Part shown: one piece after another, positions 502 to 7,242 of the stretch
Layout: each line of letters starts with the position of its first letter
Position numbering within the stretch: the stretch's first letter is position 1
From: an uncultured Paracoccaceae bacterium
Lineage (GTDB): Bacteria > Pseudomonadota > Alphaproteobacteria > Rhodobacterales > Rhodobacteraceae
Length of the DNA: 64,000 nt
NCBI GenBank assembly: GCA_947497985.1
Contig: CANMIX010000007.1
Coordinates: 1-64,000 of the forward strand
Direction of reading: 5' to 3'
Notes under the pieces: generated by a model
The model's input: only the letters and a program-made list of their open reading frames with translations
What the model was told of the DNA's origin: nothing
Databases searched by the model: none
Program-made: the position numbers and the translations under genes

Positions 502-1373
502 ATGTCAGCGAACGAGGCCTGCGTGCCTATCGCAGCCGACCTGCCAGCCAAAGGCAGCGGACGGACGTCGTCGTCCTGGCTCACATCAAAGAACAGTCTC
601 GTCTCAGCTTGGGCAGCTACGGCCCTCCGAGAATGACGGAAGAACTGAAAGAGCTGGGTTTGAACATTGGCCACCGCCGCGTCGGCAGGCTCATACGCGA
701 GAACCGCATCCGGGTTGAACGGTCCAAGAAGTACAAGGTGACGACCTCTGCCCGGCAGGCGATTGCAAAGCAGTCTGCCGAGAGGGGGACAGCAACCAGG
801 CGTTCAACATCGCGCCGATCCTGCTGAACCGGGACTTCCGCGCCGATCAACCGAACCAGAAGTGGGCAGGCGATATCAGCTACGTCTAGCCCCGCGAAGG
901 CTGGCTGTACTTGGCTGTCATCCTGGACCTGCATTCTCGGCGCGTGATCGGCTGGGCTGTGAGCAACCGGATGAAGCGCGATCTTGCGATCCGGGCATTG
1001 AAGATGGCGGTCGCGCTGCGATAGACGGCCAAGGGCTGCATCCACCATACGGATCGTGGAAGCCAATACTGCTCGCATGATTATCAGAAGCTTCTTCGTC
1101 AGTACGGCTTCAGGGTATCGATGAGCGGCAAGGGAAATTGTTATGACAACTCTGCCGTTGAGACCTTCTTCAAAAACCCCTCTCGGGCCATTGCTGCGCA
1201 ATACCCTGCCGGGCTCCGATCAAGGCAGAGCTGATCTGCAGACAGCCCTGGCCAACGCGACGGGCAGCGGAGATGGCGATCTTCAATTACATAAATGGGT
1301 TCTACAATCCGCGACGGCGGCACTCACATTGGGCTGGAAAAGCCCGGTCGCATTCGAACTGAAAGTGCCTTAG
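502..1373 (+). pseudogene. IS3-family transposase OrfB, multiply broken
   Basis: Nearly the full length of an IS3-family OrfB can be followed across three frames: the N-terminal HTH_21-like part (GSYGPPRMTEELKELG, GHRRVGRLIRENRI, about 609-740), the rve core ([29 protein letters not shown], about 850-975), then [20 protein letters not shown] and [13 protein letters not shown] (about 1045-1175), and the native tail KSPVAFELKVP ending at 1373. The gene is dead. There is a frameshift near 780, a TAG stop near 887 where the family has Trp, a second TAG near 1021, and more frameshifts near 1175 and 1270. No intact OrfA is seen upstream. Confidence 0.85.
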
Positions 1374-1424
1374 ACGACCAATTGGTGCGGCACGAAAAAG
1401 CGACAGGTCCAGTATGTTGAGTTT

Positions 1425-1496
1425 GGTGTTGTAATGCTCTCTCCATTCTTCGATCAGGGTTTGGGCCGCACGCAGGCTGTGGAAGACTTCGCCATT
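1425..1496 (-). pseudogene. Fragment of a second IS3-family OrfB
   Basis: The minus strand encodes NGEVFHSLRAAQTLIEEWRE followed by HYNT, the segment that in IS3-family OrfB proteins lies directly before RPHSSLGYRPP. It is joined on one side to the reversed end of the plus-strand IS3 copy and on the other to an IS5-type remnant. It may be the other half of the element whose tail is at 226-300, with the plus-strand IS3 copy inserted between them; that is an inference from the order of the pieces. Confidence 0.55.
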
Positions 1497-1499
1497 TTT

Positions 1500-1828
1500 A
1501 CCCACGTACTGGTCGCTGTTCGATGCGCTTTGAAATAGGTTGCGTCTATCATCGCCGTCTTCTCGTCGCCATGCCGGCCAGCAAGACCGGCCATCATCCT
1601 GGAAAAGATCCCTTTGTCGCTCCAACGTTTCCAACGGTTGTAGAGCGTCATGTGCGGGCTGTGTTCCACAGGCGCGTCGCCCAGACGTAAGCCGTTGCGA
1701 TTGATAAAGATAATCCCGCTCAACACCCGCCGATCATCGACGCGCTGCTTGCCGTGGGACTTGGGGAAGAAAGGCTCAAGACGTGCCATCTGCGCATCTG
1801 TTAGCCAAAATAGATCAGACAGATTCAC
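1500..1828 (-). pseudogene. N-terminal fragment of an IS5-family transposase
   Basis: An open frame starting at 1828 reads MNLSDLFWLTDAQMARLEPF, then VDDRRVLSGIIFINRNGLR, TLYNRWKRWSDKGIF and MIDATYFKAHRTATS. This is the DUF4096 N-terminal domain and first part of the DDE region of IS5-family elements (IS427-like group). The frame departs from the family at about 1500, where it runs into IS3 sequence, so the C-terminal half with the remaining catalytic residues is missing. The expected intact length is roughly 250 residues; about 110 remain. Confidence 0.75.
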
Positions 1829-2248: not shown

Positions 2249-3073
2249 TTAAGCGCGTTTTGCTTTGCGACGTGCTGCAAAGCCACCGAATGCCAGACCG
2301 GACAGCAGCAGCATACCGCCTGCGGGCAGTGGTACTGGTGCAACCTCTTCGATGGTGATGGTTGCCAGAGAGAACTGGCTGGCGTTGCTGATGTCGCTAA
2401 AGAAACCTGTGCCGGTGCCTGAAGCAAGAACGAAGCCAGGAGCGGTTTCGACACCCAGGAAGTCCTCCAAGGCTGCAAACCCTGCGGTGGCGCTGCCACT
2501 TTCGATGTTCACGCCACCAGGGGCGGCCGAGCCTGCTACAAAGGCCGCTCCGCCGGTGACAGAAGCATCATTCACCTCTGTGCCCGCGTCGAAAACGTTC
2601 AATCCGTTCACCGCGATGGTCTGGGTGCCGATAAAGCTACCGTCATCGTTGAAGAGGTTAAAGGCTGTGGCATCATCATTGGCGATGAACAGATCGTTGG
2701 ATGGAAGGATCATCGACAGGAAGCTGAAAAAACGCTGATTTTCAAAGTCGGTAATTTCAACTTCTGTGCTTTGTGTTGCGCCGCCCAGAAGAGCGCCTGC
2801 AGAAACTGCGGCACCGGCCGAGTTCGGGAGTGCTGCGATACGTTCTGCGCGAACGGCCGCTGGGTTTCCCAGTTCGGCCAGTGTCTCAACACCGGCTGTT
2901 ACGGTTTCACCCACGGTGACCGAGTCAAACGAACCGTCATGGAACGCGCTGTAAACCGGTGCCAAAGCAAAACCAGTATCGCCTTGTGTGTTGGTAACAG
3001 TAATGCGCAGGGTGGTTGCGGATACAGGTGCTGCCAATGCCGTAAGCAACAAAGCCGCTGTCAAAGTCTTCAT
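2249..3073 (-). CDS. Spondin-domain protein with VPLPA-CTERM sorting signal
   Basis: The 274-residue protein starts with a cleavable signal peptide (hydrophobic residues 5-19, AAPVSATT cleavage region). The body matches the bacterial Spondin_N family: TNTQGDTGFALAPV, HDGSFDSVTVGE, and PSNDLFIANDD. The C-terminus is VPLPAGGMLLLSGLAFGGFA followed by RRKAKRA: a Pro-rich motif, a hydrophobic segment and a basic tail, the VPLPA-CTERM form of an exosortase-type sorting signal common in roseobacters. The protein is therefore expected to be exported and processed at the membrane or surface. AGGAG lies 7 bases before the ATG. It is monocistronic, with a stem-loop after the stop. Its biological role is unknown. 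Confidence 0.85.
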   Translation of the reverse strand: MKTLTAALLLTALAAPVSATTLRITVTNTQGDTGFALAPVYSAFHDGSFDSVTVGETVTAGVETLAELGNPAAVRAERIAALPNSAGAAVSAGALLGGATQSTEVEITDFENQRFFSFLSMILPSNDLFIANDDATAFNLFNDDGSFIGTQTIAVNGLNVFDAGTEVNDASVTGGAAFVAGSAAPGGVNIESGSATAGFAALEDFLGVETAPGFVLASGTGTGFFSDISNASQFSLATITIEEVAPVPLPAGGMLLLSGLAFGGFAARRKAKRA

Positions 3074-3631: not shown

Positions 3632-4813
3632 TCAAGGACCGCAATTGGCAACAGACAGGTCAATCAAACGCGTAATGGCGGTGTGAAGAACATCGTCCGG
3701 TACTGTGAGAGCCAAGCGGACCAACGATGTCGCTGTGGTACCGAAGGAACTTCCGGGCATTACCGCCACACCATAATCGTCGAGCAAACGCCAAGCTAAG
3801 GTTTCGCCATCAAAACCGGTTTTTGACACGTCTATCATAATGAACATCCCTCCTTGTGGGAGAGAGGCCGATAGGCCGGGAACGTCGGCCAAGGCTTCGT
3901 GGATCATATGCGCACGGCGTGTGAAGGCGGTACGCATACGCTCGGCCGTGTCAAAGTTGCCGCGAAGGGCGGCTTCGGTCATGTCGGCGATAAAAGGTTG
4001 GTTGCCGAACAACATGGTTTCGGAAATCGGCAAGATACGGCGTGACAATTCGGTTGGTCCAATTGTCCAACCGCTGCGAAAACCCGTCGCGGCATGTGTC
4101 TTGGAGATGGAGGAGGTGACAATGGTGCGTTCCCGCAACGCAGGGATTTCAAGGGGCGAAGCAAAAGGCGTGCCAAACGTGAGGCTCTCGTAGACTTCAT
4201 CGCAGACAATCCAAAGGTTGTGTTCCACACACAACTCACCCAGATCCTGAAGCGTTTTCCGGGACAGCACAGCTCCGGTTGGATTGTGTGGCGTGTTGAG
4301 CAAAAGGACTTTGCTGTCTGCAGTGATAGCAGCGGCCAAATCGTTTGCTTGCAATTCAAAGTTATGTTCCATGCGCAGTGGGACCGGCTGAACATGGGCG
4401 CCGGTGGCCTGCACCACGCCTTCATATGTGGCGTAATAGGGATCGCCGATCAGGACGCCGTCGCCAGTCTCAGCCAAGGCTTGAATGACGGCAAACAGCG
4501 CAGTTTGGGTGCCGGGGAAACACAGAATATTGTCGGGTGCAATATCTGGAAACCGGGGTGCGTAGGTGTCGATCAATGCATTGATTAGGTTCGTCTCACC
4601 GCGCCCGTTTGAGTAACGTGTTCGCCCCGCACGCAGAGCTTTCACGCATTCCTCAACCAATTCTGGATCTGTGGGCACATCCGGCTCGCCAATGGTGAGG
4701 TCCACAATGGTGTCACCGGCGGCTATTCGGCGACGCGCGGCATTGTGGACCGCCCATTTGTCACCGCCCAGATCATAAAGGCGGTCGGTGATGGCGGCAT
4801 ATCGCAATGTCAT
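3632..4813 (-). CDS. Class I/II PLP-dependent aminotransferase
   Basis: A 393-residue fold-type I aminotransferase. Seen motifs: IGEPDVPTDPELVE near residue 41, the substrate/PLP loop NTPHNPTG (173-180) with its two Asn residues, the PLP-N1 aspartate D205 in CDEVYESL, the Schiff-base lysine K238 in SSISKTHAATGFRSGW, and a C-terminal VRLAL Arg that normally binds the substrate alpha-carboxylate. It is the third gene of a leftward cluster after a methyltransferase and a D-2-hydroxyacid dehydrogenase, 116 bp behind the latter. That neighbourhood fits interconversion of an amino acid and a 2-oxo acid later reduced to a hydroxy acid. The true substrate cannot be read from sequence. There is no strong ribosome binding site before the ATG at 4813, so the start is less certain. 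Confidence 0.85.
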   Translation of the reverse strand: MTLRYAAITDRLYDLGGDKWAVHNAARRRIAAGDTIVDLTIGEPDVPTDPELVEECVKALRAGRTRYSNGRGETNLINALIDTYAPRFPDIAPDNILCFPGTQTALFAVIQALAETGDGVLIGDPYYATYEGVVQATGAHVQPVPLRMEHNFELQANDLAAAITADSKVLLLNTPHNPTGAVLSRKTLQDLGELCVEHNLWIVCDEVYESLTFGTPFASPLEIPALRERTIVTSSISKTHAATGFRSGWTIGPTELSRRILPISETMLFGNQPFIADMTEAALRGNFDTAERMRTAFTRRAHMIHEALADVPGLSASLPQGGMFIMIDVSKTGFDGETLAWRLLDDYGVAVMPGSSFGTTATSLVRLALTVPDDVLHTAITRLIDLSVANCGP

Positions 4814-4929
4814 TGGGTCAAGTTCCGTTGAGGAAAGTTTAGGTGGGGCTTCTGCCCCATCGACTGCCGAGGCAGATCGGGCGTTGGCTCTGACTGTCTG
4901 ACGGATACTTTTGGGGCTGTATGCACCTT

Positions 4930-5880
4930 TTAATACCCTTGAGACCGTGCGACAGCGAGGCGAAGCGGAGTGCCATCGCGCAAGGCACGAGCCGTTTCCA
5001 CGACTTGTTCCGTGACGATTTCAGGCATTGAATCGCTGGCAATATGGGGCGTGATGCGCAGACGTTTATCTGACCAAAAAGGATGGTCCCGGGGCAAAGG
5101 TTCCGTGCGAAACACATCCAGTGTCGCCCCGGCGAGCTGTCCGGTTTCCAGGGCTTTTAGCAAATCGCTTTCGACAAGGTGCTCACCGCGTCCAATTTGG
5201 ATCAATCGGGCACCCGTGTTGAGGCCCGCAAAAAGTTCAGAGTTCAAAACGTTTTCTGTCGTGTTCGTCAGCGGCAGCACGTTGATTAAATAGTCAGCCC
5301 CTTTGGCAGCATCCTTGTTTGCGGCGTCACCGGTAAAGTAGGTCACGTCGCCTATTGGTGCGTCCGGTTTGGAGCGGCAGGCAACGTGTATGGTGAAACC
5401 AAGAACCTTGAGGGCTTCGATCACGGCTTGCCCCATAGTACCGTTGCCAAGGACTGCAACGACACTGCGCTCTGGCGCGTGCATTGGCAATGGCCGCCAA
5501 ATCGCGTCTTTTGCGTTTTGCATCAATCCATCAAATTCACGTTCATAGTGGAGCACCTCGTGCGCCGCATATCCTGCCATCAGGGCCGCTTGATGCGGGT
5601 CACGTACGCGCGCAATGGTGACTTCGTCGGTTAACCCAGGGTGTGCCAACAAGGCGTCCACACCGGCTCCAACCGACATGGCCAGTGCTAGGTTTGGATA
5701 GGCTGCGAAATCCTGTGCACCTGGCGCCCAACAGACAGCAAACTTTACGGCCTCTGGGTCGGTTACCTGTTCGGGTTGCAAGATCAGGACATCATCAGCA
5801 TCCAGAGCCTGGCCATAGATTTCTTTCAGGTCCAAGGTTTCACTCAGATAAACACCAAGAATAGGAGCGGGACGTGTCAT
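4930..5880 (-). CDS. NAD(P)-dependent D-2-hydroxyacid dehydrogenase, GhrA-like
   Basis: A 316-residue protein of the glyoxylate/hydroxypyruvate reductase A type. The Rossmann motif is VLGNGTMGQAV (143-153) and the catalytic triad of the family is present: R231 in IGRGEH, E260 in DVFRTEPLP and H279 in TPHIASDSMP. Family members reduce 2-oxo acids to D-2-hydroxy acids in the cytoplasm. The ATG at 5880 is preferred over the in-frame codon 60 bases upstream because it has an upstream GGAT and the longer version would intrude on the gap to the preceding gene. It lies 34 bp behind the methyltransferase gene and upstream of the aminotransferase gene, so the three are probably one transcription unit. 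A 2-oxo acid made by the aminotransferase is the obvious candidate substrate, but this is inference. Confidence 0.85.
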   Translation of the reverse strand: MTRPAPILGVYLSETLDLKEIYGQALDADDVLILQPEQVTDPEAVKFAVCWAPGAQDFAAYPNLALAMSVGAGVDALLAHPGLTDEVTIARVRDPHQAALMAGYAAHEVLHYEREFDGLMQNAKDAIWRPLPMHAPERSVVAVLGNGTMGQAVIEALKVLGFTIHVACRSKPDAPIGDVTYFTGDAANKDAAKGADYLINVLPLTNTTENVLNSELFAGLNTGARLIQIGRGEHLVESDLLKALETGQLAGATLDVFRTEPLPRDHPFWSDKRLRITPHIASDSMPEIVTEQVVETARALRDGTPLRLAVARSQGY

Positions 5881-5914
5881 TTTTAATCCTAAAGGCAAAT
5901 TCGTCCGATGGACC

Positions 5915-6829
5915 TTAGACAGGCTTGCCGCGAATGACACAGACTTCGTGAAAAAGCGGACGCTCCGGGTCGTCTTCTAGCAGTTTGTGCGCATCTCTTG
6001 CGCTTATTGGCTTTTGTCCCTCTGGGTCGGCGAAGAATGCGCAGATCAGGTCTTGCTCAAGTCCGGTACCTTGCATCGCTTTTTCCAGGGTCACAAAGAA
6101 TGAAATGTCAGTGCCTGCATCTTGTTTCACGATGCGCGAATGAAGAATTGTTGGGCTATACCCGTTGGCCTCGAACATGGCGCAGATCGTTTCGGGTGGA
6201 ATGCGCGCACCGAAATTCAAAATCACTTCGGCCTGGGGCGCGGATTTCTTTAAGCGGCGCAAAAGCGCCTCGTTCAATCCGAGCCCGACTGAATTAAAGG
6301 GCAAGCAATTGAATACCGACCATGGGTAGTAATGCGCAATATGGTCGGCACTGCGTTGGTGAGCGCCTTCGCCAAGGTCCACATCATGCGCGTCACGAAA
6401 AACGGCGAACGCCTCGTCATCGGGTGACGTAACTTGGGGCAAACAGGCGATAATAATGTCCGTTTTGGTGATCTCTGCTTTGGCTGCGTCCGTGTCAATC
6501 AGGCTTACTGAGCCCACAATCGGGTGAAAACGATCTTGATCGCCTGGGGCAAGCTCGGCGACGTTTTGGGCGGCCAGTTCCGCAAGGCGAGGATCCAAAT
6601 CGCTTCCTGACACTCGTGCGGCTTTGAGCTTCTTCAGCAGGAACACCGCGTTCATTCCTGTGCCGATACCCACTTCATACACGCGCTTGCCCGTCAGGTT
6701 TGCGCTTTCCAAACCTTCCTGGAACGTTTGTGTCCAGGGATCCGAGGGGTCAAACGCAAATGCCGGTACGTGTGGGCTGGAAGTTGCGTTCTGAGATGTC
6801 GTGGTCTTGGGCGTATCGTCCGCAGGCAT
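5915..6829 (-). CDS. SAM-dependent methyltransferase resembling methionine S-methyltransferase
   Basis: The 304-residue protein has a class I SAM-binding motif VYEVGIGTGMNAVF (50-63), the acidic loop SGSDLDPRLAELAAQN (74-89) and motif-IV-like ACLPQV (128-133). Several segments line up with my recollection of the N-terminal methyltransferase domain of plant methionine S-methyltransferase: FDPSDPWTQTFQEGL (plant FIPEDWSFTFYEGL), CLPQV (CIPQI), VGLGLNEALL (FGLGLIARAV), AGTDISFFVTLEK (ADTDISALVEIEK) and GQKPISARDA (DQPICARTA). Bacterial proteins of this size and type (MmtN) make S-methylmethionine as the first step of a DMSP pathway. The assignment is from remembered motifs and not from an alignment. 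An AAGGA lies upstream of the ATG. It is the first gene of a three-gene leftward cluster. Alternative: a methyltransferase of another small-molecule pathway. Confidence 0.65.
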   Translation of the reverse strand: MPADDTPKTTTSQNATSSPHVPAFAFDPSDPWTQTFQEGLESANLTGKRVYEVGIGTGMNAVFLLKKLKAARVSGSDLDPRLAELAAQNVAELAPGDQDRFHPIVGSVSLIDTDAAKAEITKTDIIIACLPQVTSPDDEAFAVFRDAHDVDLGEGAHQRSADHIAHYYPWSVFNCLPFNSVGLGLNEALLRRLKKSAPQAEVILNFGARIPPETICAMFEANGYSPTILHSRIVKQDAGTDISFFVTLEKAMQGTGLEQDLICAFFADPEGQKPISARDAHKLLEDDPERPLFHEVCVIRGKPV

Positions 6830-7044: not shown

Positions 7045-7242
7045 CTAGCAGACTTCCATAACAGCAACACAGGCGTTTTCGGACCGGAGACCAGTTTGAA
7101 TGGCATCCTGGCAGCAATCTTCGCTTATCTGAACGTGAACCTTTGCAGCATCCATCGAGGCACAATGCAGGGCTTGTTTGATCCGAAGCACAGCAAGCGC
7201 TTCAGGTAGGCCACGGCAGTCAAGATTTTGGTCGGAATTCAT
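7045..7242 (-). CDS. Small TusA/SirA-like protein lacking the usual cysteine
   Basis: A 65-codon frame with a good ribosome binding site (AAGGAG, 9 bases before the ATG). LDCRGLPEALAVLRIKQAL resembles the start of TusA-family sulfur carriers (LDxRGLxCPxPVLxxKKAL), but the catalytic Cys-Pro is replaced by Glu-Ala. The protein also stops before the last strand expected of the fold (usual length about 75-80). It carries four other cysteines, including a CC pair. It precedes the methyltransferase cluster on the same strand by about 215 bp. It could be a diverged TusA-like domain, a decaying gene, or a chance resemblance. Confidence 0.45.
   Translation of the reverse strand: MNSDQNLDCRGLPEALAVLRIKQALHCASMDAAKVHVQISEDCCQDAIQTGLRSENACVAVMEVC

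Follow-up and report, generated by a model that had tools for sequence, protein, structure and literature searches.

The 64,000-nucleotide stretch analyzed here (the window; positions 1 to 64,000 of contig CANMIX010000007.1, assembly GCA_947497985.1, from an uncultured Paracoccaceae bacterium) encodes an enzyme orthologous to MmtN, a methionine S-methyltransferase of bacteria. Judged by sequence comparison, it lies in a recurring, alternative kind of mmtN cluster, which is devoid of the decarboxylase of other mmtN clusters and carries an aminotransferase and a D-2-hydroxyacid dehydrogenase. A route from methionine (Met) via S-methylmethionine (SMM), 4-dimethylsulfonio-2-oxobutyrate (DMSOB) and 4-dimethylsulfonio-2-hydroxybutyrate (DMSHB) to dimethylsulfoniopropionate (DMSP) is proposed with about even confidence. 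The window would hold the methylation and amino-group-removal half of it.

Three leftward genes, described in an earlier note on this DNA, were confirmed as open reading frames (ORFs) on the minus strand of the window, and the families proposed for them held. The mmtN ortholog, a predicted methionine S-methyltransferase (5915-6829, 304 amino acids), had bacterial MmtN as the closest characterized protein found (PDB 7VVV, E 2.2e-114). The D-2-hydroxyacid dehydrogenase, a predicted DMSOB reductase (4930-5883, 317 amino acids), matched PF02826 (E 1.1e-35). Its frame would span 4930-5940 if the first GTG was used, and a start at the ATG is more likely. The third gene (3632-4813, 393 amino acids) encodes a class I pyridoxal phosphate (PLP) aminotransferase (PF00155, E 1.6e-61), which is a predicted SMM aminotransferase. 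Exactly the same order was present in Epibacterium ulvae 4A10 (locus L023, on the same contig as L022 of genome G017), with identities of 84% for MmtN, 79% for the dehydrogenase and 88% for the aminotransferase.

The window methyltransferase shared 171 of 291 aligned residues (59%) with MmtN of R. indicus in an alignment without gaps, and 52-64% identity with MmtN at the 21 loci compared besides E. ulvae. Identity above 50% to MmtN proteins of DMSP producers, which was observed here, is the mark of Group I MmtN (PMC9135737). The alignment further showed that the GxGxG signature, the S-adenosylmethionine (SAM)-binding residues D69, S101, L102 and C121, and the ion-pocket residues P169 and R183 are all kept. 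The protein thus belongs with MmtN and not with an unrelated methyltransferase family. A generic methyltransferase was considered and rejected, as the best Pfam match lay just under its cut-off, compared to E 2e-114 for the MmtN structure. Within the genus, mmtN was present in 2 of 18 genomes, including the window genome. When 394 family genomes were searched, matches appeared in 17, of which only that of the window genome was accepted. The other 16 were short, scored at most 26 bits and were taken as other methyltransferases. No viral copy was found in one scan, and a plasmid collection contained two mmtN records, both with clusters of the decarboxylase type described below.

A scan of genome contigs yielded 22 mmtN loci from other genomes, so that 23 genomes were compared including that of the window, and the neighboring genes at the 22 loci were matched by tblastn. 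Two kinds of mmtN cluster were observed. In the decarboxylase type, found at 7 of the 22 loci, the genes next to mmtN encode a class III aminotransferase and an enzyme resembling diaminopimelate decarboxylase; a plasmid of Rhodovulum sp. P5 has such a cluster. At the other 15 loci, orthologs of the window aminotransferase and dehydrogenase are encoded near mmtN. The gene-order conservation that the earlier note had asked about was therefore present at the level of the gene set, but the exact window order recurred only in E. ulvae. All 14 non-Epibacterium loci (Thalassospira, 8 of 8 loci; Stappiaceae, 4; Jiella, 1; Rhodobacterales strain BW5, 1) share a six-gene arrangement in two strand groups. 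One strand encodes the aminotransferase, a BetI-like TetR regulator and the dehydrogenase, and the opposite strand carries mmtN together with genes for a class-II-aldolase-fold and a TusA-like protein. The linkage of this module to mmtN recurs in four bacterial families.

The two cluster kinds exclude each other genome-wide. In genome-wide searches the P5-type decarboxylase was present at 66-83% identity in all seven decarboxylase-type genomes. No close relative was found in any of the 16 window-type genomes: fifteen had a match of 28-32% (31% in the window genome) and one had none at E≤1e-20. These matches are presumably LysA, since the seven decarboxylase-type genomes have such a match too. 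Conversely, the window aminotransferase was matched at 63-100% in 16/16 window-type genomes, its own included (63-88% in the 15 others), while among the decarboxylase-type genomes one had a 41% relative and six had none at E≤1e-80. The aldolase-fold family was scanned in locus L044, and the copies at the remaining loci were matched to the L044 protein. This protein was matched at 66-100% in 16/16 window-type genomes, the L044 genome included, and in none of the seven decarboxylase-type genomes above 50%, one of which has a 50% paralog. These genome counts are not independent, as 8 of the 16 window-type genomes are Thalassospira.

The aminotransferase has a lysine, K238, that appears by eye to be the PLP lysine, and this residue and R366 were invariant in 15 aligned sequences. 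Its best NCBIfam match was the cyclodehydratase GntC (246 bits, cut-off 415). A GntC identity was rejected because this score is far under the cut-off, and aminotransferase models of NCBIfam scored nearly as high. Structure prediction for the aminotransferase gave a model of moderate quality (64.1). Aminotransferases at E≤1e-110 occurred in 69 of the 394 family genomes. The window genome itself carries a 55% paralog (G000:C3:37617-38771, L113) beside genes for a TetR regulator and an amino-acid-type transporter. The dehydrogenase carries a GNGTMG nucleotide motif, and among NCBIfam models it matched GhrA best (175 bits, under the cut-off of 403). Its orthologs near mmtN at the 15 other loci were 55-79% identical.

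A complete DMSP operon within the window cluster was rejected, because no decarboxylase was found beside mmtN. The earlier note had seen no decarboxylase for the last step, and this stands for the surroundings of the window mmtN, but a candidate is present in trans: the aldolase-fold gene of the same genome lies at G000:C5:204918-205676, outside the mmtN operon. In E. ulvae the gene has the same unlinked setting. The family was recognized as PF00596 in the L044 ortholog and as PRK07044 in the copy of the window genome, and its distant PDB relatives include the oxidative decarboxylases NovR and TqaM. Three histidines are conserved in 28/28 aligned relatives and align with those of NovR and TqaM. 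Within the genus, copies of at least 66% identity occur in 3 of 18 genomes, namely the two with mmtN and one without it (G015).

Related genes were also seen in other settings. Distant aldolase-fold paralogs at L079, L081 and L082 lie with genes for an Opp-type transporter and a further D-2-hydroxyacid dehydrogenase, and one at L095 lies with a dehydrogenase and a carnitine-dehydrogenase-like gene (both partly by eye), so that the pairing of aldolase and dehydrogenase recurs in other contexts. A further paralog of the L079-L082 group, L080, has a neighborhood that runs off the stretch. At Roseibium L024:2783-3712, 1.3 kb from the aminotransferase, an agmatinase-like ureohydrolase is encoded that is 70% identical to the one on contig C5 of the window genome.

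The module is also found in genomes without mmtN. Among the 394 family genomes, with the best few candidates scored per genome, the aldolase occurred at E≤1e-85 in seven and the aminotransferase at 66% identity or more in five, all within the seven. The probability of this overlap for a random draw is ∼3e-10, with cut-offs that were set after seeing the data. Three of these genomes, all without mmtN (G167, locus L091; G327, L092; G243, L093), encode the aminotransferase, the dehydrogenase and the aldolase-fold protein within ∼7 kb. A BetI-like regulator, an M20 amidohydrolase and an amino-acid-type ATP-binding cassette (ABC) transporter are encoded there as well. In a fourth (G105, L112/L094), the aminotransferase, the BetI-like regulator and the dehydrogenase are close together. 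In G167 and G327 the module is accompanied by a PF02574 homocysteine S-methyltransferase (HMT)-family gene (E 1.7e-59 and 6.7e-58; in the PDB the G327 copy matched 5DML best), and the presence of this gene beside the three enzymes in genomes without mmtN hints at SMM as the substrate. The HMT clade was present in 4 of 27 genomes searched, including G167 and G327, whereas the window genome gave no member of it at E≤1e-20.

In phylogenetic trees the aldolase of the window genome grouped with those of G167, G243 and G327 (support 100/98), and its dehydrogenase with those of G167, G243, G327 and G105 at weaker support (88/87). The 14 other loci formed a separate clade in each of the three trees (aminotransferase, 99/94; dehydrogenase, 94/90; aldolase, 100/99). 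Because of the aldolase and dehydrogenase groupings, the three enzymes of the window genome probably share their history with the module of genomes without mmtN.

In the proposed route, MmtN would convert methionine to SMM, and the class I aminotransferase would convert SMM to DMSOB. DMSOB readily loses dimethyl sulfide by elimination. A prompt reduction to DMSHB by the D-2-hydroxyacid dehydrogenase would make sense because of this instability. The aldolase-fold enzyme, encoded in trans here and probably dependent on iron and O2, would then release DMSP from DMSHB by oxidative decarboxylation. The sequence-level basis consists of MmtN orthology, gene linkage, co-occurrence and the fact that the linked decarboxylase has no close relative here. 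From this basis we infer every reaction, what MmtN methylates and which enzyme acts last. The hybrid of methylation, transamination and reduction that the earlier note had suggested thus agrees with the gene content, in which all 16 genomes pair the aminotransferase with the aldolase, while its reactions are still read from the genes. The parts of the route differ in strength. That the aminotransferase, the dehydrogenase and the aldolase-fold enzyme act together in one pathway is very likely, and quite likely the window MmtN makes SMM. The substrate of the three enzymes probably derives from SMM, and the chances that DMSHB is turned into DMSP by the aldolase-fold protein are evenly balanced.

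Besides the dependence among the genome counts, several observations weigh against this route. Two of the residues reported to bind Met in R. indicus MmtN (R132, E127 and E250, the last of which may be Asp; PMC9135737) are replaced in the aligned window protein, in which E127 is Ser and R132 is Ala, and only E250 is kept. The E. ulvae protein has Ser at 127 and Thr at 132. In the remaining 22 sequences of the alignment (those of 21 loci and that of R. indicus), position 132 is Arg in 20, His in one and Lys in one, and position 127 is Asp in 10, Glu in 9, Cys in 2 and Thr in 1, so that a positive charge at 132 is absent from the two Epibacterium sequences only. Because of these two changes the substrate of the window methyltransferase is not certain; the enzyme may bind Met weakly, may compensate for the changes or may have a shifted substrate. 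The R. indicus alanine variants R132A and E127A retained more than 50% activity with an 8-13-fold higher Michaelis constant (PMC9135737), and the window protein is therefore called an MmtN ortholog of the Group I type with an altered Met site, an assignment made at the sequence level. The MmtN tree does not separate cleanly by cluster type, the window cluster lacks the BetI-like regulator seen in the other clusters, and the P5-type PLP decarboxylase is itself presumed to be an SMM decarboxylase from its linkage and family. The HMT-family gene accompanies the aminotransferase in two of four genomes without mmtN, and its best NCBIfam model, PRK09485, scored under the cut-off.

Other such points concern the last enzyme. 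PF00596 is a broad family, and in the PDB ranking for the L044 protein NovR came fifth and TqaM sixth. Ahead of them stood an uncharacterized member of the aldolase family, two adducins and one entry with the name fuculose-phosphate aldolase. The three histidines are shared with paralogs from other gene contexts and are thus family-wide rather than specific for decarboxylases. The match to NovR and TqaM is incomplete, because all 28 relatives have Ala in place of the Glu of their H-x-E-I-H motif. The structure model was poor (predicted local distance difference test score, pLDDT, 34.7). The aldolase-fold gene of the window genome has as neighbors a gene for an agmatinase-like ureohydrolase and one for a Pot-like transporter. 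In G105 the aldolase is ∼45 kb away from the other genes and falls in a clade found beside carnitine-dehydrogenase-like genes, and the 66% copy of G015 falls in that clade too.

The altered Met site bears directly on the order of the reactions. If the aminotransferase and dehydrogenase first made 4-methylthio-2-oxobutyrate (MTOB) and 4-methylthio-2-hydroxybutyrate (MTHB) from Met, and the MmtN-like enzyme methylated MTHB to DMSHB before decarboxylation, the same enzymes would yield the classical transamination pathway. The Ser at position 127 and the uncharged position 132 of the Epibacterium proteins (2/2, compared to 0/22 elsewhere) would fit such a shift. We regard this order as unlikely, given that R. 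indicus MmtN is reported to act on Met but not on MTHB, that its variants at 127 and 132 stay active (PMC9135737), and that the module also occurs without mmtN, beside the HMT-family gene. The amidohydrolase, present in three of the four clusters without mmtN, and the amino-acid-type transporter genes of these clusters would suit a catabolic module, in which SMM would lose dimethyl sulfide by the action of the PLP enzyme and the resulting 2-oxobutyrate would be reduced by the dehydrogenase, or in which imported SMM is salvaged for its nitrogen. The GntC match of the PLP enzyme points in the same direction, but it is far under the cut-off and aminotransferase models score almost equally. Breakdown of SMM is improbable here, as the cell would synthesize SMM merely to destroy it, and Thalassospira, which has the window-type cluster, is a reported DMSP-producing genus (PMC8543147).

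The neighbors of the aldolase gene raise the question of the substrate. The module could act on a different amino acid or on a guanidino or onium compound, with the mmtN linkage serving another product; the agmatinase-like gene and the polyamine-type transporter beside the aldolase, the Roseibium ureohydrolase near the aminotransferase and the related aldolases beside carnitine-dehydrogenase-like genes (by eye) speak for this. It is nevertheless doubtful to a similar degree as SMM breakdown, since the mmtN linkage recurs across the four families and the HMT-family linkage arises separately in genomes without mmtN. DMSP might finally be made by the ordinary path of SMM to DMSP-amine, DMSP-aldehyde and DMSP through unlinked enzymes, the neighbors of mmtN being incidental. 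This path was reported for S. mobaraensis and Burkholderia (PMC12542666). None of the 16 window-type genomes has a close relative of the linked decarboxylase, an unrelated one could serve, and we consider this explanation very unlikely.

Upstream of the window mmtN, beyond the region covered by the earlier note, stands a small TusA-like ORF (7045-7242, minus strand, 65 amino acids), which is probably the first gene of the operon. Its ATG is preceded by AAGGAG, and a TusA-like ORF occupies the equivalent place in E. ulvae. The window protein starts with D-C-x-G-L, like most mmtN-linked TusA-like proteins, and was 34% identical to the one beside mmtN in L044, at an E-value (1.1e-4) that is the value for one genome with seven genomes searched. 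Most of the mmtN-linked proteins appear to be without the CPxP cysteine of TusA. The naming is weak, as the Rhodovulum P5 member scored 20.7 bits compared to a Pfam TusA cut-off of 28.6. A TusA-like ORF is near mmtN at 22 of 23 loci (21 of 22 outside the window genome) in both cluster types; it was not seen at the Agrobacterium vitis mmtN locus (L040). The protein was not found in three genomes that carry the module without mmtN. To the left of the operon, two overlapping transposase-like frames (1302-1828, minus strand), perhaps a degraded insertion element, and a protein with a C-terminus resembling a VPLPA-type sorting signal (2249-3073, minus strand) were noticed by eye.

DMSP is a major sulfur compound of the ocean, and 16 of the 23 mmtN genomes are without a close relative of the linked decarboxylase. 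If the proposed route via DMSOB and DMSHB is true, many marine mmtN bacteria would use it as an alternative, unassigned way to DMSP, and its aldolase-fold enzyme would represent a DMSHB decarboxylase of a new kind. It is a tentative extension, which we rate somewhat below even, that one class of mmtN cluster encodes a complete DMSP route absent from the pathway schemes consulted, and that bacteria without mmtN use the same module to make DMSP from imported SMM. Thalassospira, with mmtN, was counted as a typical genus of DMSP producers, and two mmtN-carrying isolates of it were listed among these producers (PMC8543147), a report at the level of the genus and not for the strains compared here. 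The mmtN sequences from Tara were mainly from Thalassospira (PMC10989797). The bacterial methylation route has been described via SMM, DMSP-amine and DMSP-aldehyde (PMC12542666), and in the available text DsyD is the only enzyme named for DMSHB decarboxylation (PMC11306096). According to Peng et al. (PMC9135737), the genes that cluster with Group I mmtN resemble either those of Novosphingobium sp. BW1 or those of S. mobaraensis. As DMSOB is among the abbreviations of the pathway figure of that paper and is listed in a 2026 review (PMC13360808), it is not new as an intermediate. A literature search of partial coverage gave no description of the present gene set beside mmtN, and an earlier description, in the 2019 mmtN work, is possible.

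Compared to known systems, the window protein agrees with Group I MmtN of R. indicus B108 (PDB 7VVV/7VVW/7VVX) in overall identity, in the SAM site and in P169/R183, whereas the Epibacterium sequences differ by the replaced E127 and R132. The S. mobaraensis and Burkholderia route likewise starts with the methylation of Met to SMM. It proceeds with an SMM decarboxylase, a DMSP-amine aminotransferase and a DMSP-aldehyde dehydrogenase (PMC12542666), whereas the window type has the aminotransferase, dehydrogenase and aldolase-fold genes instead of the decarboxylase. The seven decarboxylase-type loci resemble that route, as judged by gene families alone. The SMM cycle pairs MMT or MmtN with an HMT. 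Two relatives without mmtN resemble it in having an HMT-family gene next to the module, whereas no HMT of that clade was found in the window genome. The aldolase-fold protein belongs by sequence to the same family as NovR/CloR and TqaM and shares the three aligned histidines with them, but these are distant and not its nearest PDB matches, and it has Ala for Glu. CloR and NovR are reported to be three-histidine iron oxygenases that convert a 2-oxo acid to a 2-hydroxy acid and then to the next lower acid (PMC13111500). Homology to class II aldolases is likewise reported for a further iron enzyme, a pyruvic oxime dioxygenase (PMC5216522). In algae the step from DMSHB to DMSP has been described as an oxidative decarboxylation (PMC10989797). 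The DsyB/DsyGD pathway shares the DMSHB intermediate and the need for its decarboxylation with the proposed route. It methylates after transamination and reduction, unlike the order proposed for the window, and the decarboxylase domain DsyD is ureidoglycolate-lyase-like (PF04115; PMC11306096), compared to the aldolase-like PF00596 of the candidate described here.

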